A stretch of DNA of 64,000 nucleotides, from NCBI GenBank assembly GCA_018335795.1, contig JAGXRP010000082.1:1-64000 (forward strand). Reading direction: 5' to 3'. Under the pieces are notes generated by a model, which searched no databases, was not told the origin of the DNA, and saw only the letters and a program-made list of their open reading frames with translations. Source of the DNA: Desulfobulbaceae bacterium (GTDB taxonomy: Bacteria; Bacteroidota; Ignavibacteria; Kapaibacteriales; UBA2268). Positions 51,462-64,000 of this stretch are shown here, piece by piece. Both the position numbers and the translations under genes were made by a program. How positions within the stretch are numbered: position 1 is the stretch's first letter; the number at the start of each line of letters is the position of its first letter.

Positions 51462-52649
51462 TTATGGAATCATCGCTAAAGCGTTATCTAATGCTGAAAG
51501 CAAATCGTTTACATCTTCAATTCCAACCGAAATACGAATCAGTCCGTCATAAATGTGAGCTTTTTCGCGTGATTCCTTACCCATACCGGCATGAGTCATT
51601 GATGCCGGGTGTTGGATAAGTGATTCGACTCCGCCAAGGCTGACTGCGAGTTGAAAAAGTTCGATATTGTTCATAACGGTAATCCCGGCTTCAATTCCAC
51701 CAAGCAATTCTGCGGCTATCATAGAGCCCGGACCGGTCATCTGTTTCAATCCGAGTTCATATTGTGGGTGAGATTTAAGCCCGGGATAATTGACCCATTT
51801 TACTTTTGGGTGATTTTCGAGGAATTCGGCGATAATCATAGCATTTTCAGCTTGCTGTTTGACTCTTATCGAAAGAGTTTTTAAGCCTCGGTGTACGAGG
51901 AATGAATTGAATGGGTCTATCACACCGCCAATAAGATTGAGTGATTTGCGGAACGACTTGTATTCGGATTCATCTTTGAGTATAATAATTCCTGCAACAA
52001 CGTCAGCGTGACCATTCAGATATTTTGTCATGCTATGGACAACATAATCTGCTCCGAAAAGTATTGGCTTTTGATATATAGGGCTCATGAAAGTATTGTC
52101 CACGGCGAGTTTAGCACCTGCCTTGTGGGCGATTAGAGCTATGGCGGCAATATCAGCCATAACGACTGAAGGATTGCCCGGAGTTTCGATAAAAATTAAT
52201 TTTGTGTTTGATTGGACTGCCTTTTGAACAGCTTCGGAATTGCAAGTATCAACAAATGTAGTTTCGACACCAAATCTGGTGAAGAAATCATGTAATATTG
52301 TGTATGTTGGACCGTAAACGGCTTCACTGCAAATTACATGGTCGCCATGGCTCAGAACGGTAGCAAATAAGGTGTGGATTGCAGCCATTCCGCTGGCGCA
52401 TCCAAGTGCTTTTGCTCCCATTTCGAGAGCAGCAATGGCATCTTCCATTGCTTCGACTGTTGGGTTGCGCATTCTGGTGTAGATATAACCATCGGATTCT
52501 CCCTTAAATAGTGAAGCTCCGTGATTTACATCTTTGAATTTGAATGTTGAAGTTTGATAAATCGGTGTTACGATAGAACCTTCGGGGGTTTCTTTAGTTC
52601 CGGCGTGAACACATATTGTTTCTTGCTTATAATTACGAATGTCTTTCAT
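51462..52649 (-). CDS. Cys/Met-metabolism PLP enzyme (cystathionine gamma-synthase / methionine gamma-lyase type)
   Basis: A 395-aa fold-type I PLP enzyme of the trans-sulfuration family. Lys209 in VVHSMTKYLNGHADVVAG is the PLP Schiff base; YTRMRNPTVEAMED binds the phosphate of the neighbouring subunit; ETPGNPSVVMADI and LAVDNTFMSPIYQKP are family blocks; GGVESLIQHPASMTH closes the active site. Whether it is cystathionine gamma-synthase, a gamma-lyase or O-acetylhomoserine sulfhydrylase cannot be settled from the sequence; the Cys that marks methionine gamma-lyases is not clear (the corresponding segment reads YGPTYTILHDF). The ATG at 52649 has GGAG 5 nt upstream. A hairpin with a T-run sits just before the ribosome site. 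Confidence 0.88.
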   Translation of the reverse strand: MKDIRNYKQETICVHAGTKETPEGSIVTPIYQTSTFKFKDVNHGASLFKGESDGYIYTRMRNPTVEAMEDAIAALEMGAKALGCASGMAAIHTLFATVLSHGDHVICSEAVYGPTYTILHDFFTRFGVETTFVDTCNSEAVQKAVQSNTKLIFIETPGNPSVVMADIAAIALIAHKAGAKLAVDNTFMSPIYQKPILFGADYVVHSMTKYLNGHADVVAGIIILKDESEYKSFRKSLNLIGGVIDPFNSFLVHRGLKTLSIRVKQQAENAMIIAEFLENHPKVKWVNYPGLKSHPQYELGLKQMTGPGSMIAAELLGGIEAGITVMNNIELFQLAVSLGGVESLIQHPASMTHAGMGKESREKAHIYDGLIRISVGIEDVNDLLSALDNALAMIP

Positions 52650-52665
52650 TGTGTCTCCATGAAAT

Positions 52666-52697
52666 AAAAAATGTCGGTTATTGTAAAAATAACCGAC
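52666..52697 (-). terminator. Strong hairpin with T-run in the leader of the PLP gene
   Basis: Stem GTCGGTTATT / AATAACCGAC (52673-52682 with 52688-52697, loop GTAAA) followed on the minus strand by a T-run (52672-52667) that ends about 13 nt before the GGAG of the PLP gene. It can terminate read-through from the FKBP gene, or act as an attenuator if transcription starts in the 60 bp upstream. Confidence 0.8.
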
Positions 52698-52733
52698 ACA
52701 AAATTAACTATAATTCACATGCAATAAAAACTA

Positions 52734-52752
52734 TGAGCAAATTTTATGCTCA
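52734..52752 (-). terminator. Weak hairpin after the FKBP gene
   Basis: Stem TGAGCA / TGCTCA (52734-52739 with 52747-52752, loop of 7) followed on the minus strand by TAGTTTTTA. It lies 9 bp beyond the FKBP stop and may be that gene's own, weaker terminator. Confidence 0.5.
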
Positions 52753-52760
52753 AAATGAAT

Positions 52761-53492
52761 TTAATCTATGACATCGAGTAATTCAACATCAAAAATCAAA
52801 ACTTGATTTGGCCCGATTGATGGATGAGCATTTTCGCCATATGCCAATTCAGAAGGAATATAGAACTGCATTTTACCACCAACTTTCATAAGTTGCAAAC
52901 CTTCAGTCCAACCTTTGATAACGCCCGACAAAGGAAATTCGATCGGTTCGCCTCTTTTGTATGAACTGTCAAATTCCTCTCCATTGATAAAGGTACCTTT
53001 GTAATGTACTTTAACTTTACTTGTAGCTTTAGGTGCTTTACCTGTGCCCGGAGTAATTTCTTTATATTGCAAACCTGATGCAGTAACTTTTACACCGGGT
53101 TTAGTTTTGTTTTGTTCAAGGAATTCTTTTCCTTTTTGCAAATTCACACCAGCCATTTTATTTGTCTCCTCTTGTTTTATAGCTTCGCCTTGTTGGCGTC
53201 TTACGTTGATTTCAGCTACAAGTGCTTGCATCATTGCGTCAACTTTAGCTTGGTCCATTTCAATTTGATTGCCGCTTAGTGCATCTACAATACCCTGCTT
53301 GAGGGCGTCAATATTTACTTTAACGGAATCCATAGCCAAAGAACCACCCCATTGTGTTCCAATTATGTAGGAAATTGAATCCTGCGCATTTTTGAGTTCA
53401 ATCGGCTTAGTCTGTTCTTTTTTGTTTTGTGCTTCAGCACCACATGATACTAATAAAAAAAGCGAGATTGTTATAGAAAAAATCTTATACAT
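52761..53492 (-). CDS. FKBP-type peptidyl-prolyl isomerase lipoprotein (FkpA/Mip-like)
   Basis: A 243-aa periplasmic or outer-membrane folding factor. The signal ends in a lipobox LVSC with Cys17 as the lipid site. An N-terminal helical dimerisation domain follows (DSISYIIGTQWGGSLAMDSV, then charged helices), and the C-terminal FKBP domain has KVKVHYKGTFINGEEFDSSY, PIEFPLSGVIKGWTEGLQLM and MQFYIPSELAYGENAHP, with the Trp and Tyr of the active pocket present. This is the FkpA/Mip domain order. It would speed proline isomerisation in exported proteins. It is divergent from ribH. Confidence 0.93.
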   Translation of the reverse strand: MYKIFSITISLFLLVSCGAEAQNKKEQTKPIELKNAQDSISYIIGTQWGGSLAMDSVKVNIDALKQGIVDALSGNQIEMDQAKVDAMMQALVAEINVRRQQGEAIKQEETNKMAGVNLQKGKEFLEQNKTKPGVKVTASGLQYKEITPGTGKAPKATSKVKVHYKGTFINGEEFDSSYKRGEPIEFPLSGVIKGWTEGLQLMKVGGKMQFYIPSELAYGENAHPSIGPNQVLIFDVELLDVID

Positions 53493-53584
53493 TTGGTAAA
53501 TACTCCAATAAATTATAAAAAATTATAAATTTCAAATTATTTTTACTAAAATAACGTCTTCACAGCAAACATTTACGATTCATT

Positions 53585-53617
53585 ATTGTAAAAATTGGAA
53601 TTTTATTGTTAAATTTG
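53585..53617 (+). promoter_or_regulatory. Candidate Bacteroidota-type promoter for ribH
   Basis: ATTG (53585-53588) and TAAATTTG (53610-53617, fits TAnnTTTG) are 21 bp apart. The predicted start lies about 20 nt before the ribH ATG at 53646. Confidence 0.5.
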
Positions 53618-53645
53618 AAAATTGTATAAAGAAAAAGAGAAATTA

Positions 53646-54110
53646 ATGCCGCAAATAATTGAAGGAATTTTTGATGCAAAAGGCAAATCATTTGCCATTG
53701 TAGTGTCACGTTGGAATCAGTTTGTGGTTTCAAAGCTGCTTGATGGTGCCTTAGACGGACTCCGCAGAAACCAAGCTGATGACGCTAAAATCACTATAGC
53801 TTATTGCCCCGGTGCTTTTGAATTACCGCTGATTGTCAAGAAAATGGCTGAATCGAAAAAGTATGATGCTATTATTGCACTTGGTGCTGTTATTCGTGGC
53901 TCAACGCCTCATTTCGACTATATCGCCTCCGAAGTAAGCAAAGGCATTGCTCGAGTTTCACTCGATTCCGGAGTACCATGTATTTTGGGAGTATTGACAA
54001 CAGATACTATTGAACAAGCTATTGAAAGGTCGGGAGCTAAACAGGGCAACAAAGGTTTTGAATCTGCCATTACGGCAATCGAAATGATTTCATTAATTAA
54101 TGCCTTGTAA
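53646..54110 (+). CDS. ribH: 6,7-dimethyl-8-ribityllumazine synthase
   Basis: Penultimate enzyme of riboflavin synthesis, forming lumazine from the pyrimidinedione and dihydroxybutanone phosphate; usually a 60-mer or pentamer. [17 protein letters not shown] holds the ribityl-binding Trp23, [15 protein letters not shown] is the substrate strand, and [14 protein letters not shown] contains the catalytic His89. Length (154 aa) is typical. The ATG at 53646 is preferred to an upstream TTG at 53622, whose added residues are Lys/Glu-rich and not family-like. No other rib genes are present. The PorZ-like gene follows 54 bp later on the same strand. Confidence 0.96.
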
Positions 54111-54164
54111 AGGAGATTGTATCGCAGTTGTTACCTTTTTGTCAAAATTATTTGTGGTAAAGCG

Positions 54165-56423
54165 ATGAAATTATTCTTTATATTCTCGGCTTGTTTCATA
54201 CTCACTTTAACGACTGCAATCTCTACAGATTTTCGTGTAGATAATTGGAAATCACATACATCGCTTTTGGATGTCATCACAGTCGCTGTTGACCATAAAG
54301 ATAGAATTTGGGCCGGTTCATCAGGCGGAGCATTCGTCTATGGTAAAAATGACGGCTCATATAAAAAATTTGATAATATTAATGCATTCCTTAGTAGTCA
54401 AATTACAGTGATAAAAGCCAATAAAGATCGAGAAATTATCATGCTCGGAACTTATGAGGGTAATATTGAAATATTCAATCCTGAAGAAAAATGGATACAC
54501 ATAACAGATATCTACAACCAACAATTTTCTAACTCAATCATCTATGACATTCAATTCCTTGGTGATAAAGCGTATATTGCCGGCGGATTCGGACTAGCTG
54601 TTTTCGACCTGAATAATAATGTTTTTATCGAAACCATTAAAAGATATGGCGATTTCCCCAATCTAACCCCAACCAACAAGATACTAATCGAAAATAACAC
54701 AATTTGGCTTGCTACTGATGTGGGCGTTGCTAAAGCTCGGCTTGATGACCAATTAGCTAATCCGGCAGTATGGACAAATTATGACCAACAAGATGGTCTT
54801 TATGATAAGAAAATTCTGAATCTAACATCAGTCAATAATACTATTTATGCGATGTCGGAGAAAACTGTAAAGATGTTTAAAGAAGATTTCTTTGAAGAAT
54901 TTATCGAATCCCCTGACCAGCTTACATGTATCAATGAATTTGAGAACAATCTTGTTTTAACAAACCAATTCAACTTGCGTATCGGAACAAATATCATTGA
55001 CATTCAGCATCCGGCATTAATTCGTGGGTTTGAAATTGCTCATAATTCTACAGCTGAACCATATTTTATCTTTTATTACCGTGATGCAGGAATCGGGATT
55101 TTCCAGAACGATACATTAATCCACTATAAACCTAATAGTCCAATAACAAATAGCTTCAGAAGTATGAGCGTTGACGAAGATGGTGATTTATGGATATCCA
55201 CGACATTTGGAGGTGCTTCGAGAGGTTTCGCCAGCTATGATGGAGAAAATTGGAATAATTATACATCCCCAATTTATCCGGTATTGAAAACAAACGAATA
55301 CCACAAAATAACCGCTAAAAATGGCAAAGTTTACGCCAGCAACTACGGAGCAGGCATTTATATTTTCAATAAAAATGATACAATAACCAATGGTAAATTA
55401 TATGACAGGAGCAATTCTGCCCTTAATGGATTAGCTGATGCACCTGATTTTGTAATAGTTGGAGAAACTGAGGTTGACAACAAGGGTTGGGTTTGGATGG
55501 CGTGCTTAGGTACTGTTTCACCGGGTCCATCATTAGTCGCCATTACTCCTGATGGCGATTCTTACGGCTTTATCAACAAACAAAGTCCAAATTCAAGGCA
55601 ATTCATGACAATAGGCATTGATTTTTACGGTACTAAGTGGGTAGGCGGCACACCTGTACATGGTTTAGGCTTGATGTATTATAATGAAAATGGTACTCCT
55701 GACGATTTGACCGATGACGTGAGTGAAATGTTGACTTCGTCTCAAATTCCCAATTTGTTGGAAAATGTTCATAATTGTATTACGGTTGATAGATTGGGTA
55801 CTGTATGGATTGGCACTGCTAAAGGGGTTTCAGTTATTATAAATCCGTCAGCAGTTCTTAATAACAGAAGCAATCTGATTGTAAGGTCTTTATCAAGATT
55901 GTTGGGTGAGATTAATGTAAACGATATTGTGGTTGATGCGCAGAATAACAAATGGATTGCAACAAGTGATGGTGTGTGGGTTGTAGATTCTGACGGTGCT
56001 GAAGTTTTGGCATTTATTAACTCCTCTAATTCGCCCTTACCAACAAATGAAGTTTTTGCATTGGGGTATGATGGCAAATTCGGGAAAATGTTTTTCAGTA
56101 CAAGATTTGGAGTTTACGAAGCAACTACTCTCTCAGTCATTCCTGCCGATAAATATGAAATTGTTTGTTATCCGCAACCATACGACCCAAATGTGGATTC
56201 TGAAATGGTAATTGACGGGCTTGTAGAATATTCGGAACTGAAAATCCTAACGACCGATGGTTCTTTTGTTAGGAGCATTGTAACGGGAAGCAAGAAGACA
56301 GTCTGGGACGGAAAAGATGAAAATGGTAATTTTGTTAATAGTGGGATATTTTTAGTTGTAGCGACATCGTTAACAACTAAAGAAACTGCTGTTCAGAAGA
56401 TTGCAGTAGTCCGAAAAAACTAA
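54165..56423 (+). CDS. porZ: PorZ-like propeller protein of the type IX secretion system
   Basis: A 752-aa exported protein. The signal peptide MKLFFIFSACFILTLTTAIS starts at the ATG at 54165; the 16-residue extension from 54117 is rejected. The mature N-terminus NWKSHTSLLDVITVAVDHKD starts a set of two-component-regulator-type propeller blades (RIWAGSSGGAFVYGKNDGSY, TIWLATDVGVAKARL, TVWIGTAKGVSVI, KWIATSDGVWVVD). The opening and the two-propeller length match PorZ, a surface protein that feeds A-LPS to the T9SS sortase PorU. A C-terminal FlgD-like sorting domain is present (CYPQPYDPN, KKTVWDGKDENGNFVNSG). It could be another Reg_prop protein; the order of blades favours PorZ. Confidence 0.78.
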   Translation: MKLFFIFSACFILTLTTAISTDFRVDNWKSHTSLLDVITVAVDHKDRIWAGSSGGAFVYGKNDGSYKKFDNINAFLSSQITVIKANKDREIIMLGTYEGNIEIFNPEEKWIHITDIYNQQFSNSIIYDIQFLGDKAYIAGGFGLAVFDLNNNVFIETIKRYGDFPNLTPTNKILIENNTIWLATDVGVAKARLDDQLANPAVWTNYDQQDGLYDKKILNLTSVNNTIYAMSEKTVKMFKEDFFEEFIESPDQLTCINEFENNLVLTNQFNLRIGTNIIDIQHPALIRGFEIAHNSTAEPYFIFYYRDAGIGIFQNDTLIHYKPNSPITNSFRSMSVDEDGDLWISTTFGGASRGFASYDGENWNNYTSPIYPVLKTNEYHKITAKNGKVYASNYGAGIYIFNKNDTITNGKLYDRSNSALNGLADAPDFVIVGETEVDNKGWVWMACLGTVSPGPSLVAITPDGDSYGFINKQSPNSRQFMTIGIDFYGTKWVGGTPVHGLGLMYYNENGTPDDLTDDVSEMLTSSQIPNLLENVHNCITVDRLGTVWIGTAKGVSVIINPSAVLNNRSNLIVRSLSRLLGEINVNDIVVDAQNNKWIATSDGVWVVDSDGAEVLAFINSSNSPLPTNEVFALGYDGKFGKMFFSTRFGVYEATTLSVIPADKYEIVCYPQPYDPNVDSEMVIDGLVEYSELKILTTDGSFVRSIVTGSKKTVWDGKDENGNFVNSGIFLVVATSLTTKETAVQKIAVVRKN

Positions 56424-56434
56424 TTTCAAATATT

Positions 56435-57157
56435 TTAAAAATCAATCCTAAGGTGAAATGAAAATGCGAATCTTTTTGCAGGATTATTAAAATCAATAAC
56501 TTCACCTTGGAAATACAAAGTCACGCTTTTGATTTCGCCTTCTTCAACAACGCGCTTACTAACGCCGAAAATGCCGTTGATTTTGTCAGCTTCATAGTCA
56601 AAATTGACATAATCGGTCGTCGTAAATGTAAGTTTGAAGTTTCCACCCAATTTTTTGAGCTCGGCTAAGGGAATCGGTTGGTCACTGATAATAAACATTT
56701 CCGGTATTTTGATGTAACCATATCTTATAACTCCGGGAAATCCCTTGTTTTTTACTACTTGCAAATCATGATTAGTAGTAACCGACAGAATCAAATCCAA
56801 TTTCGGGGTCAAATAATTATAGTCCAAAGTTGAATTATAGCTGAATTGGTCAAACTCTGAAGTCAATTCACGTATATCTCCGCCTTGACCGTGACGCTGG
56901 AAAATTTGTAAGTAACTTTTGCCGGAAGTGACAATAGGTTGCTTTACATAAGAAGTATCATAGATAGTATCGCGTTTTGCAACAATTTCGCGTATCACTA
57001 CTTTTTTATAATTTATCATAGTTGTATCAACACTGATTGTATCGCCCGAAATCATTTCCTTGATGTAATCAGTACCGTTGACCCCGAGAGAATCTTCGCA
57101 TGAAAATAGTCCCAATGTCAATAATGTTGCGATAAGTACAAGATAAATTTGATTCAT
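56435..57157 (-). CDS. Lipoprotein of the ECF sigma operon, unrecognised
   Basis: A 240-aa lipoprotein with a clean lipobox LFSC (Cys20). The mature part is beta-rich, starting with short Asp/Thr-rich text and later YNYLTPKLDLILSVTTNHDLQ and NFKLTFTTTDYVNFDYEAD. No family was recognised. It is 11 nt downstream of the anti-sigma/barrel gene and therefore likely part of the sigma operon, perhaps as a stress-sensing or target lipoprotein. It is convergent with the PorZ-like gene, 11 bp between stops. Confidence 0.75.
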   Translation of the reverse strand: MNQIYLVLIATLLTLGLFSCEDSLGVNGTDYIKEMISGDTISVDTTMINYKKVVIREIVAKRDTIYDTSYVKQPIVTSGKSYLQIFQRHGQGGDIRELTSEFDQFSYNSTLDYNYLTPKLDLILSVTTNHDLQVVKNKGFPGVIRYGYIKIPEMFIISDQPIPLAELKKLGGNFKLTFTTTDYVNFDYEADKINGIFGVSKRVVEEGEIKSVTLYFQGEVIDFNNPAKRFAFSFHLRIDF

Positions 57158-57168
57158 TTCGATTTTTC

Positions 57169-58470
57169 CTAAAATTTAAACCCAAATCCGATTTGCAAAC
57201 CGGTTTTACCGGAATCAAACCAATTCCCACCATGTTTAAATCTCAAGTGATTATATCCATAAGCGACAACGAATTTTGAAGTATTATCCATTGAAAATTC
57301 GAGACCAAGCATACCTCTAAAAACTGGTCCCACTGTCGAATAACCTCCATTTAATTGAACGAAAGGAGCGAAAAAACTAATTTTTGCAAAATCAGGATGG
57401 TAACGTACTAGAGCTCCGTAAGTTTCGATGTTTGGATTTTGGTGATAAGTGTATAATATACCCTCTTCAACACCTGTAAAAGTTTGGTAGAAATTTTCCC
57501 TGTGATAGTCAAGCCCAACATTCAACTCATTAAACAATGAATATGTTGCGGAAATACCAAAGTTAGCCATGTCATATTTTGCGGGGTCAATTTTGACGCC
57601 TTCCCCATGATTATAAATCGAACCTCGGAACTCCAATGCAAAATTTTCATTGCCTTCGTTGCCAATAAAAGCTGTTTCAATCATCGGATTTCTAATGTCA
57701 TTTGCTCCGTAAGGACTTCTGAGTAAACTCAAAGGTGCATCAGTAACTCTAAATTGTTTGTTCAGAGATGCTAAATTAGCTTTGCTCAAAGCTACTTCCG
57801 AAGGTGAAAAGATGCTATTATTCGCTTCATTTCTGAGCAATTCAGTATTGTCTTGGTTTGCATCAATTTTTTGATTTTCATTAGTTCTCGAATCATCTTT
57901 TGTTACATAGATATACTTATAAACAACTTTGGGTTCGGTATTTGATTGATTAGCTACATTTGATTTACTTGCAATATTTGATTCTACAGCTTCGAAATCG
58001 TTTGACTTTGCCAAATCTGCTTCCGAAGTCATTACCGGAATCGCAGATTCATTGATATTGTTGATAGTAACATTGTTACCATATTTGGCAAGCAAAACTC
58101 CATCAAAAGTACCAAAATTATAAAGCATGAAGATAACGACTGCAGTAGCAGCAGCTGTAGCTAATCCTGTCATGAAGAACGGAGACAGGCTACTAAGTTT
58201 ATGAGCGATCACCGAGAAAAAGCCCGGATTTGGTATAGGAGCTATTCCCGGAGGAGGAGTCAGACCAATCGTATTGAAAATATTCATAGTAGATTGGGCT
58301 TTGGGAGTAAAAGCAACAACATCGGATTTGACCGCACTTTTAATCGCCATCTGACTTTTGAGTTCTGCCCGCAAATCTTCATTGGCTGTGAGCATTTGGA
58401 ATAGCTCTAGTTCTTTTTCAGGCGGTAAAACTCCTTCGATGTAATCGTATATTATTTGTTCTTGTTCCAT
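57169..58470 (-). CDS. Anti-sigma-like membrane protein with C-terminal outer-membrane-type beta-barrel
   Basis: A 433-aa protein in four parts. Residues 1-60 look like an anti-sigma domain (YDYIEGVLPPEKELELFQML) but lack the HxxxCxxC zinc motif. A single membrane helix lies near 97-118 (FFMTGLATAAATAVVIFMLY). Residues about 120-265 are a low-complexity, Asn/Ser/Glu-rich linker. From about 268 to the end the sequence is alternating beta strands with aromatic girdles (FALEFRGSIYNHGEG, FGISATYSLFNELNVGLDYH, FVVAYGYNHLRFKHGGNWF) ending in GFGFKF, the Phe terminus used by the Bam complex. It follows the sigma gene by 19 bp. An inner-membrane anchor joined to an outer-membrane barrel is unusual; the barrel might stay periplasmic and act as a folding sensor. 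Confidence 0.78.
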   Translation of the reverse strand: MEQEQIIYDYIEGVLPPEKELELFQMLTANEDLRAELKSQMAIKSAVKSDVVAFTPKAQSTMNIFNTIGLTPPPGIAPIPNPGFFSVIAHKLSSLSPFFMTGLATAAATAVVIFMLYNFGTFDGVLLAKYGNNVTINNINESAIPVMTSEADLAKSNDFEAVESNIASKSNVANQSNTEPKVVYKYIYVTKDDSRTNENQKIDANQDNTELLRNEANNSIFSPSEVALSKANLASLNKQFRVTDAPLSLLRSPYGANDIRNPMIETAFIGNEGNENFALEFRGSIYNHGEGVKIDPAKYDMANFGISATYSLFNELNVGLDYHRENFYQTFTGVEEGILYTYHQNPNIETYGALVRYHPDFAKISFFAPFVQLNGGYSTVGPVFRGMLGLEFSMDNTSKFVVAYGYNHLRFKHGGNWFDSGKTGLQIGFGFKF

Positions 58471-58489
58471 ATTCGGACCATTTATTATA

Positions 58490-59056
58490 TTATTTCATAC
58501 TAATGTCTTTCAAATAAGGGTTAAGTATCGATTTAATCTTTTGCTTAGCCCTAAAAACTCTTGATTTTGCATTGCCGAGAGATATGCCCGTCACTTCGGC
58601 AATCTCCTCATAGCTCAAACCGCTATATTCTCTCAACACAAACGCTTCCCGGTAGTCGTCTTCAAGCAAATCAAGCGAGCGTGTTATCAAATCTAACAGT
58701 TCCTTTTGTTCGTAATTTGTACCTATGCTAACGTAGTAATCAACTTCGTCAATTTCAACTGTGTTTTTTTTGTCTCTTTTTGCATTCAAACACAAATTTC
58801 GAGCGATTTTCATCAAAAAGCCCGGAATATTTGTATTTTCCATGTCCGGTTGTACTTTTTGATAAAATTTTATGAAGGTATCTTGGAAAATATCATCAGC
58901 TTTGTCCTCGTCGCCTGTCACCCTGACGCAATAAGCATGAACAATCGAAGAATATCTGTCGTAAAGCACACGGAAAGCTTCCGATGCATCGGCTTTATCG
59001 CCACTAAGCATCGAAACGAGTTCCACATCTGACAGACTTCTAAAGTTCTTAGCCAT
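58490..59056 (-). CDS. ECF-type RNA polymerase sigma factor (RpoE-like)
   Basis: A 188-aa ECF sigma factor. Region 2 is seen as AFRVLYDRYSSIVHAYCVRV and DEDKADDIFQDTFIKFYQKV, with the -10-recognition part PGFLMKIARNLCLNAKRDKK. Region 4 is the helix-turn-helix LSYEEIAEVTGISLGNAKSRVF. A linker typical of ECF factors separates them. It is the first gene of an operon with the anti-sigma/barrel gene and a lipoprotein. TATATTTG (59084-59077, minus strand) may be its -7 box, though no matching -33 was found, so autoregulation by its own promoter type is possible. Confidence 0.95.
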   Translation of the reverse strand: MAKNFRSLSDVELVSMLSGDKADASEAFRVLYDRYSSIVHAYCVRVTGDEDKADDIFQDTFIKFYQKVQPDMENTNIPGFLMKIARNLCLNAKRDKKNTVEIDEVDYYVSIGTNYEQKELLDLITRSLDLLEDDYREAFVLREYSGLSYEEIAEVTGISLGNAKSRVFRAKQKIKSILNPYLKDISMK

Positions 59057-59272
59057 TTACCGCTCAAATTTACAATCAAATATAAATACACTTATCGAAT
59101 AAATTAGTTGCAAATAATTGTAACTTTTTTGCTTTACTGAACATTTATAAGTTTAAATATTGTCCAAAACAGAATTTTTATTTTTTGATTGCTTTTTGAT
59201 AGCATGACCCGTTTTTTTTCAGTACTTTAGTTTTTGCATTTTATGAAATATTATCAATTGGAAACATACTCG

Positions 59273-60253
59273 ATGAAATCACTTTACGGAACAGTACTTT
59301 TCACTATATTTACAATGATTTTGATGTTTACTTCTATTTCTGACCTACAAGCACAAAAAAGCCCCTATAACGTAGTCGCTAAAGAGGAAGAAAAACGAAG
59401 GAAGGAAGAATTAGAGCAGCTTGAAACTGAAAAAGTGGGTCTAAGGTTTATGCTTAAGTATATTTCTTCTAATTCATCTTCATTTTATGATGGCAATGGT
59501 GACAATTTGACTCTTTATGCAGATACAAAAATAGTCCCCGGTGATACAATCGCATATAATTTCAACGACGTCACTCATAATATTGACCTTTTCGTTGGCT
59601 ACGAATTTTACAAAAATCTGACTGTCGGGATTGGATTACCACTTTCTCTGATTTATTACGATGAAAATTATCTCGATTATTCCAACACAGGTAGCGTAAC
59701 CAACAAAGTACTTAAGTATGAAGACAACATTTTCCAGTTAGATTTCATAAGTCTGGCGGCAAACTATATATATACTTACGAATCATTTTTTTCGGATTTC
59801 CAACTCAATGTAGCGATTCCGACTGCCGCCGAACCAAAGTTTGGAGATTCGAGCAGTTTCTCCAGATACTTCCCGTTCGAAATCACACCACAAATCTCAT
59901 CCGGTATTAAAGGTGCGAAATATGCAATTCTGACAGAACTCGGCTATCGAATAAGAGGCGGAGATTACTCCGACATGTTGATTGCGAATTTGAATTTGAT
60001 GCTGACATCAGTACCGGATACAGAAATGAGAGCATTCGTCCAATCCGGTTACTCATTCGATACGATTGCTGATAATGCTTTACTCGATGCTCGGCACAAT
60101 CCGTATAGCGAAATTTACATGAGATTTGGATTTGCGTTCAAGATTTTGATTGAAAAAACATTTCATGCAGAATTTATATATCGGGTTACACTACTGGGAA
60201 TTACTACCCGAAATACAGCCGGATACACAATTGTTTTAGGTCTTAACCTTTAG
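59273..60253 (+). CDS. Outer-membrane beta-barrel protein, unrecognised
   Basis: A 326-aa exported protein divergent from the sigma operon. The signal peptide (SLYGTVLFTIFTMILMFTSI) begins at the ATG at 59273 with GGAA upstream; the in-frame start at 59234 is less likely. A charged coil (KEEEKRRKEELEQLETEK) precedes the barrel, which shows regular strands such as NIDLFVGYEFYKNLTVGIGL and YAILTELGYRIRGG and ends GYTIVLGLNL. The layout is of a transport or outer-membrane beta-barrel of about 12-14 strands. Its position opposite the sigma gene makes it a candidate target of that sigma factor. Confidence 0.72.
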   Translation: MKSLYGTVLFTIFTMILMFTSISDLQAQKSPYNVVAKEEEKRRKEELEQLETEKVGLRFMLKYISSNSSSFYDGNGDNLTLYADTKIVPGDTIAYNFNDVTHNIDLFVGYEFYKNLTVGIGLPLSLIYYDENYLDYSNTGSVTNKVLKYEDNIFQLDFISLAANYIYTYESFFSDFQLNVAIPTAAEPKFGDSSSFSRYFPFEITPQISSGIKGAKYAILTELGYRIRGGDYSDMLIANLNLMLTSVPDTEMRAFVQSGYSFDTIADNALLDARHNPYSEIYMRFGFAFKILIEKTFHAEFIYRVTLLGITTRNTAGYTIVLGLNL

Positions 60254-60422
60254 TTAAGTAGCCTGAAATCATATCATTATAAGGAAATCTACAATTATAA
60301 AACTAAGTATTCGTTTTTGTACTTTCAAATAATGCATTTTGTTTTTTACTTTTTTAATATTTTAAATATGAAATAATTTTACTTGATTTAGGTTATGTTT
60401 CACAATAGGAGTACAACTCCGA

Positions 60423-61214
60423 ATGCCTTTAATATCTTTTATACGGAAGCAGATGTATATTTTTGCAGCTCCTGCATTAATAACTGTCATATTGCTTTCG
60501 ATACACATTTTAGTAAGCGCGAAAGAGCCAAATCGGGAAACCCTCCGTTCCGAGATAGAAGCCATAGCTGATACTGCCAAAGTTGACGTTGCAGAACTTG
60601 ACGTAGCATCAGACTTCCTACTTACTGTAAATGGTACAGCGTCTCATTATGGGAAACGTTTCCACAACAGACGCACTGCGAGTGGCGAAAAGTACGATAT
60701 GTACGAATACTCAGCTGCTCATAAGAAACTCCCCTTTGGGACAATCTTGAAAGTTACAAATACTATAAATGGACTTTCGACACTTGTTAGAATCAACGAC
60801 CGCGGACCATACGTAGGCAAAAGAGTCATTGACCTTTCCTACAAATCAGCACAAGCTATAAATGGTATGGGATTGCCCAAAGTCTCTTTTGAAGGATTCA
60901 TCCCGGGGAAAATTGACATTCCTGATGACGGAAAATACTTTTTTGCGTATTCATTGACAGAGAGCCCTGTATGTTTGCCGTCTGATAAAGTTGAAATCAT
61001 AAACCAATTTGACGGATTCCATACTACAGTGACAGAATACAAATCACTTTTAGCCAATGGAGCGGACAGTACGGAATTGTTCATCTTGGTAGATGCTGAC
61101 GAATATACCGAAAAGCAAACTGCCAGAGACAACGACTCCTATTTTATAGGCAAACTTTCGACGCCAAAGCAGCGCAAAATACCTTTCATGATGGCAGAAA
61201 AGGTTTATCCTTAA
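60423..61214 (+). CDS. RlpA-like septal ring / lytic transglycosylase protein
   Basis: A 263-aa exported protein. After a signal/membrane segment (YIFAAPALITVILLSIHILV), residues about 66-150 are a double-psi beta-barrel RlpA domain: VNGTASHYGKRFHNRRTASG, AAHKKLPFGTILKVTN, VRINDRGPYVGKRVIDLSYK. The Asp/Arg of NDRGP and the preceding His are the conserved transglycosylase-type residues. The C-terminal 100 residues are beta-rich and contain no SPOR domain, which many RlpA proteins carry. It would cleave peptidoglycan glycan strands at division sites. An internal ATG (MYIFAA) is an alternative start. Confidence 0.88.
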   Translation: MPLISFIRKQMYIFAAPALITVILLSIHILVSAKEPNRETLRSEIEAIADTAKVDVAELDVASDFLLTVNGTASHYGKRFHNRRTASGEKYDMYEYSAAHKKLPFGTILKVTNTINGLSTLVRINDRGPYVGKRVIDLSYKSAQAINGMGLPKVSFEGFIPGKIDIPDDGKYFFAYSLTESPVCLPSDKVEIINQFDGFHTTVTEYKSLLANGADSTELFILVDADEYTEKQTARDNDSYFIGKLSTPKQRKIPFMMAEKVYP

Positions 61215-61243
61215 AATTTGCTACGAGCATGAATAAAAATTTT

Positions 61244-61274
61244 AGAGGCTGATTAATTTCAGCCTCTTTTTTTT
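61244..61274 (+). terminator. Intrinsic terminator after the RlpA-like gene
   Basis: Stem AGAGGCTG / CAGCCTCT (61244-61251 with 61260-61267, loop of 8) followed directly by a T-run to about 61275. It separates the RlpA-like gene from the umuD operon. Confidence 0.92.
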
Positions 61275-61343
61275 TATATATTTGCAGAACATTTATCGAA
61301 AATATGTAGATAAGTGTGAAGCGACAATTTTTGAGGAATTATA

Positions 61344-61796
61344 GTGGCATTATTAAAACTACATAGTAGCCCAACATTGGAAATTTACTCCGCAAACACA
61401 GCTACGGAGCTTGAATTGCCTTTGCTCCCCTTTACTTTTAGTGCTGGTTTCCCATCGCCGGCTTTAGATTTTGTGGACTTAAATATTGACTTGAACAAGC
61501 ATTTAATCGAACATCCGGCTGCGACTTTCTATGGCAGAGTGCAAGGCGAATCTATGCGTGGTGCAGGTATAAATAATGGCGACCTATTAATCATAGACAA
61601 AAGCATCGAACCCGCCGATGGTAAAATCGCAGTTTGCTACATTGACGGAGAATTTACATTGAAACGTATAAAAATTGACAAAAGCGGAATTTGGCTAATG
61701 CCCGAAAACGATTCATACAAACCCATCAAAGTCGAGGAACACCACAACCTCGAAGTTTGGGGCGTCGTAACATTTATCATCAAAAAGCCACTGTAA
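61344..61796 (+). CDS. umuD: UmuD-like S24 self-cleaving subunit
   Basis: A 150-aa S24 peptidase of UmuD size with no DNA-binding domain. The cleavage site is Ala34-Gly35 ([10 protein letters not shown]), the nucleophile Ser70 ([10 protein letters not shown]) and the general base Lys107 (EFTLKRIK); the spacing equals that of E. coli UmuD (24/60/97) with an offset of 10. After RecA-stimulated cleavage it should form UmuD' for a Pol V-like complex. The start is a GTG at 61344 with GAGGA upstream. A -7-like TATATTTG lies at 61277-61284, without a clear -33. The stop overlaps the umuC ATG (TAATG). Confidence 0.94.
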
Positions 61797-63055
61797 TGTT
61801 TGCTCTCATTGACTGTAATAATTTTTATGCTTCCTGCGAGCGAGTTTTCCGACCCGACCTCGTAGGCAAGCCCGTTGTAGTGCTTTCCAACAACGACGGC
61901 TGTGTGATTGCTCGTAGTAACGAAGCCAAGGCAGTCGGCATACCGATGGGTGCACCACTTTTTGAATACGAAGAATTGCTCAACAAACACAATGTCCAAG
62001 TCTTCTCGGCAAATTTTGCTTTGTATGGCGACATGAGCCAACGAGTGATGAGTATTTTAGAGCAATACAGCCCCGAGATGGAAATTTACAGCATTGACGA
62101 GGCTTTCTTGAAGTTCGATGGATTGGAGCATCTCAATTTGCATAGTTATTCCAAAGAATTACGAATCAAAGTGCAAAAATGGACAGGAATTCCCATAAGC
62201 GTAGGTGTTGCACCCACCAAAGCATTAGCAAAAGTAGCAAATCGAATTGCGAAAAAATTCCCCAAAGAAACCGAAGGCGCCTACATCATAGACACCGATG
62301 AAAAAAGAATCAAAGCACTAAAATGGCTCAAAATCGAAGACGTCTGGGGAATCGGACGCCAACACAGCAAAAGACTAATCTCGGTTGGGGTAATGACGGC
62401 ACACGACTTTGTCCAACTTGACGATGCATGGGTAAAAAAACATTTGGCAGTTGTTGGCTTGCGTCTGAAACACGATTTGCAGGGCATACCCACATTAGGC
62501 TTAGATTCAGTGCAATCCAAAAAAAGCATCGCAACTACGCGTTCATTTGAAGAAAATTACACCAAGTTGGAGCAACTGCAAGAACGCATTTCGACATTTG
62601 CCGTTTCTTGTGCAGAAAAATTGCGTCATCAAAAGTCCTGTTGCAATTCGCTCATGGTGTTTGTGCATACCAACGGACACCGCAAGGACTTGCCCCAATA
62701 CAGCCGAAACATAGTTATCAAATTGCCCTTTGCAACCAATTCCAGCATCGAATTAAGCCGATTTGCACTATTTGCTTTATCAAAAATATTCAAAGATGGT
62801 TATCACTACAAAAAAGCCGGCGTAATCGTGCAAGATTTTACACCCGAAGACAGCACACAAATCCACCTGTTTGAAAACAGAGACGAAAGACATATTCCGC
62901 TAATGAAAGCTGTGGACGCACTCAACAAAAGCTACGGACAGCAAAAAATTCGCTTGGCAACTCAAGACCAAAAACGCGTTTGGAAAATGAAACAAGAAAA
63001 ATTATCACCACGATACACAACCAAACTTTCTGACATCATTAAAATTCATTGCTGA
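61796..63055 (+). CDS. umuC: Y-family DNA polymerase UmuC
   Basis: The catalytic subunit of a Pol V-like translesion polymerase, 419 aa. [20 protein letters not shown] starts the family sequence, with the metal-binding Asp6; [13 protein letters not shown] carries the second catalytic acid pair; [22 protein letters not shown] is a fingers motif whose Tyr/Phe gate is in [24 protein letters not shown] is the helix-hairpin-helix, and a little-finger region follows to the end. Its ATG overlaps the umuD stop, so the two are coupled. The longer in-frame ORF starting at 61691 lies inside umuD and is not used. Confidence 0.96.
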
Positions 63056-63056
63056 T

Positions 63057-63659
63057 ATGTGCTTCCATTCCCAACAATCGAAATCGGCTCAAGAGCTAAA
63101 ACACCGTTTCAAAGCAAAATTTGAGGACGAAGAAGAATTCCGCCCCGAAGTTTACAACGGTTTCCGATTCCCCAAAACACCCGTAATCACAAGAAGCGAT
63201 GTGGGCAATATCCAACTATTCTCTTGGGGATTAATTCCGCATTGGGCAAAAGACAACAGCATCAGGAAGAGCACGCTGAATGCCAGAATTGAAACCATAC
63301 ACGAAAAACCCTCATTCAGAAACGTAGTCCATAACCGTTGTTTGGTACTCGCCGATGGCTTTTTTGAATGGAAATGGTTAGACGAAGCGGGCAAGAAAAA
63401 GCAGAAATACCTCATCACAATGCCGGACAACGACGCCTTTGCCTTTGCGGGGCTCTATAGCCACTGGACCGACCGCAACACAGGCGAAATCATCAGCACC
63501 TACACAATTCTCACTACCGAAGCAATCGGATTGATGCGCGAAATTCATAATTCCAAAAAACGTATGCCCGTAATCTTAGACCGCGCAAACGAACAATTAT
63601 GGCTATCCGGACAAACAGACACACTTCACGAAATAGAATTGATAGCAATTGAAGTTTGA
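63057..63659 (+). CDS. SRAP/HMCES-family abasic-site protein (YedK-like)
   Basis: A 200-aa SRAP protein that shields abasic sites in single-stranded DNA by forming a covalent link through its N-terminal Cys2. MCFHSQ at the start provides Cys2; WGLIPHWAK, then STLNARIET (Asn75), FRNVVHNRCLVLADGFFEW (Glu104) and EIHNSKKRMPVIL (His164) match the catalytic set of E. coli YedK (Cys2, Asn75, Glu105, His160). It begins one base after the umuC stop, so it forms umuD-umuC-SRAP, a damage-tolerance operon in which abasic-site protection and bypass are expressed together. Confidence 0.95.
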   Translation: MCFHSQQSKSAQELKHRFKAKFEDEEEFRPEVYNGFRFPKTPVITRSDVGNIQLFSWGLIPHWAKDNSIRKSTLNARIETIHEKPSFRNVVHNRCLVLADGFFEWKWLDEAGKKKQKYLITMPDNDAFAFAGLYSHWTDRNTGEIISTYTILTTEAIGLMREIHNSKKRMPVILDRANEQLWLSGQTDTLHEIELIAIEV

Positions 63660-63685
63660 GAGCATCTTAGCCCCCACTAAAATAT

Positions 63686-63716
63686 TTTGTTAGTTTTCAT
63701 AAATCTTATATATTTG
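63686..63716 (+). promoter_or_regulatory. Bacteroidota-type promoter for the secreted protein at the right edge
   Basis: TTTG (63686-63689) and TATATTTG (63709-63716) stand exactly 19 bp apart, a full match to the TTTG-N19-TAnnTTTG consensus of Bacteroidota primary promoters. The ATG of the next gene is 28 bp downstream. Confidence 0.75.
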
Positions 63717-63743
63717 TAAGATATTCATATATGGGATTAAAAA

Positions 63744-64000
63744 ATGAGAACTATCCGCCTGAAAATATGTGCATTTTTATTGCTTTGTTTCAGCATTGTC
63801 AATGCAAACGCAATTAGTCCTGTTTTCAATTGGGCTAAATCATTTGGCAGCAATGATAGAGATTATTTCACAAGTTTCGCTATTGATAAGGCAGATAATG
63901 TTTATCTGACCGGTAATTTCATGCTTACCATGGAATTTGGCGCCGGCAATGAATCATTCGATTTGATTTCAAATGGGAAGTATGATTTTTTTGTCGCAAA
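63744..64000 (+). CDS. Secreted propeller-type protein, truncated by the window edge
   Basis: An open frame of at least 85 codons running off the window. It starts MRTIRLKICAFLLLCFSIVN, a signal peptide, and continues with NWAKSFGSNDRDYFTSFAID and DNVYLTGNF, text typical of SBBP-type beta-propeller repeats found in T9SS cargo. The promoter just upstream supports the start at 63744. The C-terminus is not visible, so the sorting domain is a guess. Confidence 0.75.
   Translation, partial: MRTIRLKICAFLLLCFSIVNANAISPVFNWAKSFGSNDRDYFTSFAIDKADNVYLTGNFMLTMEFGAGNESFDLISNGKYDFFVA

Follow-up and report, generated by a model that had tools for sequence, protein, structure and literature searches.

The window analyzed here, i.e., the whole stretch of 64,000 nucleotides from a Kapaibacteriales genome of 3.53 Mb, carries on its minus strand three consecutive genes coding for an ECF sigma factor, a 433-aa protein combining a predicted anti-sigma domain with a C-terminal barrel (hereinafter the anti-sigma-barrel protein) and a lipoprotein, with intergenic gaps of 19 and 11 bases. 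NCBI taxonomy places Kapaibacterium in Bacteroidota and Ignavibacteriae bacterium HGW-Ignavibacteriae-1 in Ignavibacteriota. The three genes are:

58490..59056, minus strand: ECF sigma factor, 188 aa, with Pfam Sigma70_r2 and Sigma70_r4_2 above cut-off.
57169..58470, minus strand: anti-sigma-barrel protein, 433 aa, in a single frame, recognized from the ORF, its congener homologues, the AlphaFold2 (AF2) model and order-wide profile matches.
56435..57157, minus strand: lipoprotein, 240 aa, third gene of the operon, with Cys20 after a hydrophobic N-terminus and homologues downstream at related loci.

On the plus strand lies a 768-aa frame with the PorZ N-terminal propeller domain of type IX secretion (54117-56423), its end and that of the lipoprotein gene being 11 bases apart. 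This porZ gene, a divergent barrel gene, rlpA and an FKBP gene were found as neighbors at congener loci only, among 47 loci examined with flanks of 1.5-4 kb. Thus, porZ and the other tested neighbors were rejected as operon partners, and the genes for the sigma factor, the anti-sigma-barrel protein and the lipoprotein travel as a unit. At 61344-63659 (plus strand), consecutive genes for a Peptidase S24 (UmuD-like) protein, a UmuC-type polymerase and an SRAP protein form an SOS mutagenesis cassette. A search against Rfam at gathering scores gave no matches in positions 52000-64000.

The frame of the central gene (57169-58470, minus strand) is free of internal stops and both congeners keep it as a single frame at 81-82% identity; therefore, it is not a frameshift artefact, and the joining of two genes by a frameshift, against which the preliminary description had cautioned, did not occur. 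The possibility that the 433-aa frame joins two genes artefactually draws on nothing at the window locus itself, its one point of support being a relative (L109, one of 17 from named genomes) that is split in the linker. Full-length single frames in the congeners and throughout the order, i.e., in independent genomes, refute it, and its probability is negligible. In L109 (3986-5135, plus strand), the anti-sigma-barrel gene comprises two frames with the break in the linker, whereas the sigma and lipoprotein genes are whole; this could be an assembly error or a separated protein.

An AF2 model of the 433-aa protein, built with 16 sequences and having a mean pLDDT of 57.5, together with conservation across the family, delineates the following parts:

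58237..58470, minus strand: predicted anti-sigma domain (residues 1-78), helical and without a zinc motif; helices in the AF2 model, the best-conserved region, co-varying with the sigma factor and weakly matched by an NCBIfam anti-sigma model in 7 of 24 members.
58117..58185, minus strand: membrane helix (residues 96-118), an AF2 helix and the single hydrophobic segment at threshold in most members.
57658..58116, minus strand: predicted disordered, Asn/Ser-rich tether (residues 119-271), by its pLDDT below 50, its composition and its bounded length with unconserved sequence.
57904..57927, minus strand: VVYKYIYV island in the tether (residues 182-189), a possible docking or cleavage site, with a similar island in some other tethers.
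57172..57657, minus strand: predicted C-terminal outer-membrane-type barrel (residues 272-433), from the AF2 strands and superposition on OprF and OmpA.

The model places helices at 2-11, 17-29, 31-54, 58-67 and 96-118, and strands from 277 to 432. Its confidence is middling over the anti-sigma helices (pLDDT blocks of 47-74), falls below 50 over residues 89-273, takes values of 68, 79 and 50 in the three blocks spanning 271-300 at the start of the barrel, and is 81-94 in the ten-residue blocks from 301 onward. The barrel superposes on OprF (4rlc) with a Z-score of 16.9 at 2.9 A over 121 residues, and on OmpA (1qjp) with a Z-score of 15.9; Foldseek likewise places outer-membrane barrels first for this domain. 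The C-terminus is thus modeled as a closed 8-stranded up-and-down barrel of the OmpA/OprF type, a likeness at the level of the fold.

In sequence searches, the 433-aa protein has no Pfam match at E <= 1, and a PDB sequence search with the 24-row family alignment (A1) returned two weak neurexin matches and nothing else. Scans of 24 relatives recovered the OMP_b-brl family in five (best E 4e-5), the NCBIfam anti-sigma model weakly in seven (best E 0.011), zf-HC2 in two and RseA_N in one, the latter two at E 0.06-0.15. The C-terminal domain might instead be a soluble periplasmic barrel of the lipocalin- or avidin-like kind, given that avidin-like proteins also superpose on it (Z 11-12), as does one soluble barrel of designed sequence (13.1). 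However, the higher rank of the outer-membrane barrels (Z 15-17), the OMP_b-brl matches in the relatives and the terminal F, L, Y or W of 85 of the 96 family members (see below) make this very improbable.

The preliminary description had read the locus as a sigma factor paired with an anti-sigma protein ending in an outer-membrane-type barrel, and the Pfam sigma regions, the AF2 strands and the OprF superposition bear this out, the closed barrel whose absence it had regarded as fatal being present in the model. Its zinc-less N-terminus is likewise upheld: residues 1-95 contain no Cys and one His, and none of the 96 distinct members has the HxxxCxxC motif of the zinc-binding anti-sigma domains (ZAS, zf-HC2) within its first 100 residues. 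The one membrane helix it had noted recurs as a single hydrophobic segment passing the threshold in 90 of the 96 (none in two, two in four). A long Asn/Ser-rich linker and a barrel ending in Phe were also seen correctly, whereas their lengths need adjustment, the linker (119-271) having 153 residues, with 22 Asn and 15 Ser, and the barrel (272-433) 162, instead of about 145 and 165.

Homologues are widespread in the order. A protein search gave matches in 37 of 40 genomes, the own genome counted, and a profile search found homologues in 119 of the 123 genomes of the order. Across a sample of the phylum 60 of 296 genomes were matched; 25 of these are the own genome or belong to its family or order, and among the matches listed for the other 35, most cover the N-terminus only and lie in short frames. 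The own genome encodes eight full-length copies, each adjoining a sigma gene and six accompanied by a lipoprotein recognized by its HMM. A family HMM run on 90 loci (L009-L098, the window's own locus being included twice) yielded 92 frames: the sigma gene is adjacent in 90 of them, the exceptions being one contig end and one fragment at the edge of a fetched stretch, and a homologue of the lipoprotein is present at 69. At the 17 loci from named genomes, the sigma gene is found in all, the lipoprotein in 16, and a whole anti-sigma frame in 15, with the frame split in L109 and truncated by a contig end in L111. The recurrence in 119 of 123 genomes and the near-invariant sigma neighbor therefore show that the protein is not a chance fusion. 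The same domain order, which the preliminary description had proposed to seek in related genomes, hence recurs, with tethers of at least 108 residues in the 95 members measured; the lipoprotein, to which it had assigned a possible part, begins 11 bp downstream of the anti-sigma-barrel gene and holds its place both by this conservation and by co-variation with the barrel.

For quantitative comparison, 96 distinct members were assembled: from the 92 frames, one duplicate locus and two fragments were removed, 8 members from named loci were added, and one of an identical pair was dropped. Pairwise identity averages 0.318 over the anti-sigma domain, 0.264 over the barrel and 0.138 over the tether. 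The last residue is F in 56, L in 22, Y in 6, W in 1 and another residue in 11, as compared to 6 of 88 sigma proteins ending in F, Y or W. A terminal aromatic residue is typical of outer-membrane assembly substrates. In the 95 members in which the helix could be placed, the tether ranges from 108 to 192 residues, with a median of 139. The comparison thus supplies a quantitative argument for spanning: the sequence of the tether is free and its length bounded, as would be expected of a spacer that needs to reach the other membrane. A KYIYI-like island about 54 residues past the helix occurs in 20 of the 95 tethers, against 1.05 expected in shuffles; the pattern having been picked after viewing the alignment, this enrichment is a lead only.

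Co-variation was assessed from distance matrices for 88 sigma/anti-sigma pairs and for 64 complete trios that include the lipoprotein. Over the 88 pairs, sigma distances correlate with those of the anti-sigma domain at r 0.68, as against 0.35 for 75 random barrel columns and 0.32 for the tether; among distant pairs, the correlation of the anti-sigma domain with sigma exceeds that of the full barrel by 0.39 (bootstrap 0.28-0.50). Conversely, in distant pairs of the 64 trios the lipoprotein follows the barrel (0.45) more than the anti-sigma domain (0.34) or sigma (0.19). Partial correlations sharpen this picture, being 0.60 (0.52-0.67) for sigma and the anti-sigma domain, 0.38 (0.30-0.48) for lipoprotein and barrel and -0.06 (-0.13 to 0.03) for lipoprotein and sigma, with a control of permuted pairing at 0.00 (sd 0.03). 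On the basis of adjacency and co-variation, the sigma factor and the anti-sigma protein are probably cognate. The pattern is compatible with sigma docking on the N-terminus and the lipoprotein acting with the barrel, with shared selection as an alternative to contact. A lipobox-like pattern, narrowly defined, is found in 45 of the 64 third genes. The fold of the lipoprotein has no Foldseek match at E <= 0.001, and a YceI-like assignment (best VIA Z 6.3) was considered and not adopted.

Upstream of the sigma gene lies a candidate promoter:

59084..59114, minus strand: predicted autoregulatory promoter of the sigma operon, TTTGCAACT-N14-GTGTATTT, an exact match to a motif found at constant spacing upstream of orthologous sigma genes.

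The consensus of this motif is TTTGCAACY-N14-GTGTAWTT. In relaxed form it is present in 14 of 89 sigma upstream regions (13 distinct loci), against 0.19 expected after shuffling, and 13 of the 14 keep the 14-base spacer. The remaining 75 lack it and, therefore, other sequences must serve most of the paralogues. In the own genome, the strict pattern matches exactly at three sites, namely that of the sigma operon (matched by construction), C44:20542 and C69:21384. A genome-wide pattern search also located the motif at the congener locus L011, and the same three gene sets lie downstream of three exact sites in one congener (G002) and of two exact sites and one with a single mismatch in the other (G001). 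When up to two mismatches were allowed, the three congeneric genomes gave 32 sites as compared to 13 for the reversed pattern, so the weaker sites are individually untrustworthy. An earlier claim that the box alone, as opposed to its flanks, is conserved among the congeners was dropped, the flanks being partly conserved too.

The C44 site precedes a gene for a lipoprotein with LTDEQ and LDEEQ segments, followed by a barrel gene of the OMP_b-brl_2 family (E 5e-16); the C69 site precedes that of an 801-aa protein in which carboxypeptidase-regulatory domains are combined with a tail for type IX sorting (E 9e-9). Searching six other genera with a related pattern, at no more than one mismatch, returned 24 sites versus 2 for the control: 5 are located ahead of the sigma operon; another 14 have a long frame no more than about 125 bases away, and many of these frames show by eye signal-peptide or lipoprotein-like N-termini; the other 5 have no clear target. 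Homologues of both targets recur among these sites. Among the LTxxQ lipoproteins, that of G020 gives 124 bits with the protein of the own genome and 47 with that of G023; for the large surface protein of the own genome, the scores are 251 bits with its counterpart in G020, 136 in G014 and 93 in G023. Against the Spy/CpxP LTXXQ family (PF07813, cut-off 24.3 bits), the G020 protein reaches 21.5 and the own protein 10.1, and that of G023 has no match; being below the family cut-off, the target is therefore called Spy-like as a lead only and is not assigned to the family. Over nine genomes, PF07813 scores above its cut-off in just one, at a different gene. Hence, the predicted regulon comprises the sigma operon itself, the LTxxQ lipoprotein/outer-membrane protein pair and the type IX-sorted protein, and appears partly conserved across genera.

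Related sites were encountered elsewhere. At L293:1404-4108 (minus strand), a promoter-like site with two mismatches, shared by all three congeners, lies ahead of a lipoprotein gene, whose product has a propeller-like match, and of a gene for a GAF-SpoIIE phosphatase; a paralogous trio is found nearby on the same contig and the site may belong to another sigma factor. In G014 (C33:10944-11030) and G023 (C36:55531-55615), represented by L306, L311, L318 and L321, the box is doubled back to back, with one copy facing the sigma operon and the other the gene for the large surface protein.

The barrel could be a test substrate that competes for the outer-membrane assembly machinery and is cut when unfolded, so that it would report assembly capacity and not a stable position. 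The terminal aromatic residue and the inclusion of an LTxxQ lipoprotein and an outer-membrane barrel among the predicted targets are in keeping with this, but the barrel sequence is conserved in detail, with invariant residues in alignment A1, and its distances track those of the lipoprotein, properties that would not be required of a mere test substrate; we consider this reading rather unlikely. Alternatively, the barrel could be a surface receptor for a specific ligand or partner, which would be bound by its outer loops or by the lipoprotein in the manner of cell-surface signalling, with each paralogue serving a different input. The eight copies in one genome with their own sigma genes, the barrel following sigma only loosely, as though diversification of the input end were unconstrained, and the many predicted targets that are secreted or surface proteins would all suit a receptor. 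Nevertheless, no TonB-dependent receptor or ligand-binding domain was recognized and the LTxxQ-type target points to general envelope stress, leaving this a decidedly improbable option.

Our preferred interpretation, that of a trans-envelope anti-sigma factor, may be placed against known systems. In the RseA/DegS/RseB system of Escherichia coli, stress on outer-membrane proteins leads to the release of a membrane anti-sigma factor, RseA, whose periplasmic domain is small; RseA lacks a barrel, whereas the Kapaibacteriales protein ends in one. The closest design is Dma2, which combines an N-terminal anti-sigma domain, one membrane helix, a long disordered tether and a C-terminal barrel, and adjoins an ECF21 sigma factor in a three-gene operon whose third gene codes for a DUF4943 protein (PMC13088901). 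The same source calls the Dma class new and confined to Bacteroidota, and reports that loss of Dma2 increases vesicle formation, acting through its sigma factor. In Phocaeicola vulgatus, the anti-sigma factor M0N98_03760, beside an ECF sigma, is predicted to reach across the periplasm to a barrel in the outer membrane; the pair is induced by an outer-membrane-targeting toxin directed at the lipid A-core, probably through envelope stress, its loss results in longer O-antigen, and its regulon includes O-antigen length and nigD-type genes, with EcfO/Reo of Bacteroides fragilis being a similar sigma/anti-sigma pair (PMC9308784). A further ECF sigma/anti-sigma pair of P. vulgatus, CirYZ, is tied to a Spy-like periplasmic protein (PMC13114119).

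The order of parts, the adjacent ECF sigma and the three-gene operon are all shared with Dma2 as described in that source. Unlike in the operon of Dma2, the third gene here gives no DUF4943 match (16 proteins, E <= 1), DUF4943 being a trait of one Dma operon, and the targets predicted here are the LTxxQ lipoprotein, the outer-membrane barrel encoded after it and the type IX-sorted protein. M0N98_03760 and EcfO/Reo resemble our system in joining an ECF sigma to an anti-sigma with a predicted barrel, a likeness by their published description. A Spy-like link is common to CirYZ and the present system; however, the spy gene lies within the CirYZ operon, whereas the LTxxQ gene here lies elsewhere and shares the predicted promoter. 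The design as such is hence already in print for Bacteroides and Phocaeicola (Dma2, PMC13088901; M0N98_03760, PMC9308784). New are a lineage whose anti-sigma domain has no detectable similarity to those of 13 Bacteroidia proteins sharing the layout, the co-variation that links sigma to this domain and the lipoprotein to the barrel, and a candidate promoter with predicted targets; no literature naming both Kapabacteria and anti-sigma was found.

To set the lineage beside its Bacteroidia counterparts, 13 Bacteroidia proteins of the same layout, each adjoining a sigma gene, were compiled, their relation to Dma1/2 being one of layout. The sigma alignment A5 led to the Bacteroidia loci L203 and L205; the sigma family NF058625, tried as another route to Bacteroidia Dma genes, was discarded, the downstream genes at its best loci being mostly short (about 140-264 aa). 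Among the 13, Pfam recognizes OMP_b-brl_2 in five and OMP_b-brl in two, the barrels of the rest being assigned by position and alignment. The anti-sigma part is short, with a PPxxxW motif seen by eye, and the hydrophobic helix falls at 39-80 in eleven and at 99-117 in a twelfth, whereas the search for it in the remaining protein gave nothing. Profile comparison of the anti-sigma domains with this set detected no similarity (E 0.22; shuffled controls 0.2-0.76), that of the barrels a weak one (E 4e-4, probability 34%), and full-length profiles reached a probability of 42% over barrel columns only. In contrast, a match over the whole length is obtained at E 7e-25 with seven rows drawn from other orders within the class, and at 8e-38 once three distant rows of the same order join them. 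Run against 61 genomes of the order, the Bacteroidia alignment (A6) found matches in nine, eight in the barrel half only and one (G038) N-terminal. The dissimilarity of the anti-sigma domains may thus reflect either an exchange of domains, or a design built twice, or divergence that has erased the signal.

Several Bacteroidia loci display further variations next to ECF sigma genes. Genes immediately following the sigma gene at L180:2061-3182 (plus strand), L191:242-1489 (minus strand) and L201:2049-3290 (plus strand) code for anti-sigma-like proteins with an early membrane helix and, instead of a barrel, a C-terminal CHU_C domain (a type IX secretion signal), a possible secretion tail. L206:2520-4190 (minus strand) codes for a 556-aa protein adjoining an ECF sigma; it has a single membrane helix and terminates in a barrel of the PorP/SprF type (Pfam E 4e-21, obtained with the cut frame L183), i.e., the same layout with a different class of barrel; the next frame, of 327 aa, resembles PorP/SprF by eye. 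At L202:2034-3519 (plus strand), the frame after the sigma gene combines an early membrane helix with von Willebrand factor A domains.

Computation thus provides the single frame, the architecture, the barrel fold, the conserved operon, the co-variation and the promoter motif with its predicted targets. The protein is most likely a trans-envelope sentinel of the state of the outer membrane that would keep its sigma factor off. More specifically, we favor, at a probability of roughly 0.6, an anti-sigma factor of the Dma design, for which there is precedent both in the loss of Dma2, which acts through its sigma (PMC13088901), and in the toxin-induced P. vulgatus pair (PMC9308784). We infer that the helical N-terminus would contact the adjacent ECF sigma and hold it at the inner membrane, with one helix crossing this membrane and the disordered tether crossing the periplasm, that the OmpA-like barrel would insert into the outer membrane, and that the co-encoded lipoprotein would act beside and in contact with this barrel. 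The signal would be a barrel left unassembled or a disturbance of the barrel/lipoprotein unit, upon which the tether would be open to proteolysis and the sigma factor released. The freed sigma would transcribe its own operon, thereby refilling the sensor, and also envelope and surface genes, including that of the LTxxQ (Spy-like) lipoprotein.

More broadly, we tentatively suggest, at odds somewhat short of even, that the trans-envelope anti-sigma factor came about on at least two occasions within Bacteroidota, whether through independent origins or through exchange of the anti-sigma domain, that an outer-membrane lipoprotein and the barrel form the sensing unit of a three-part device, and that the several copies per genome serve separate envelope inputs. 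An anti-sigma factor joining both membranes would be the shortest route from the state of the outer membrane to transcription. The printed cases found come from gut Bacteroides and Phocaeicola, and the Kapaibacteriales design differs from these in its inner domain and its conserved lipoprotein partner; with a promoter motif whose targets can be listed, both the sensing unit and its regulon become testable.
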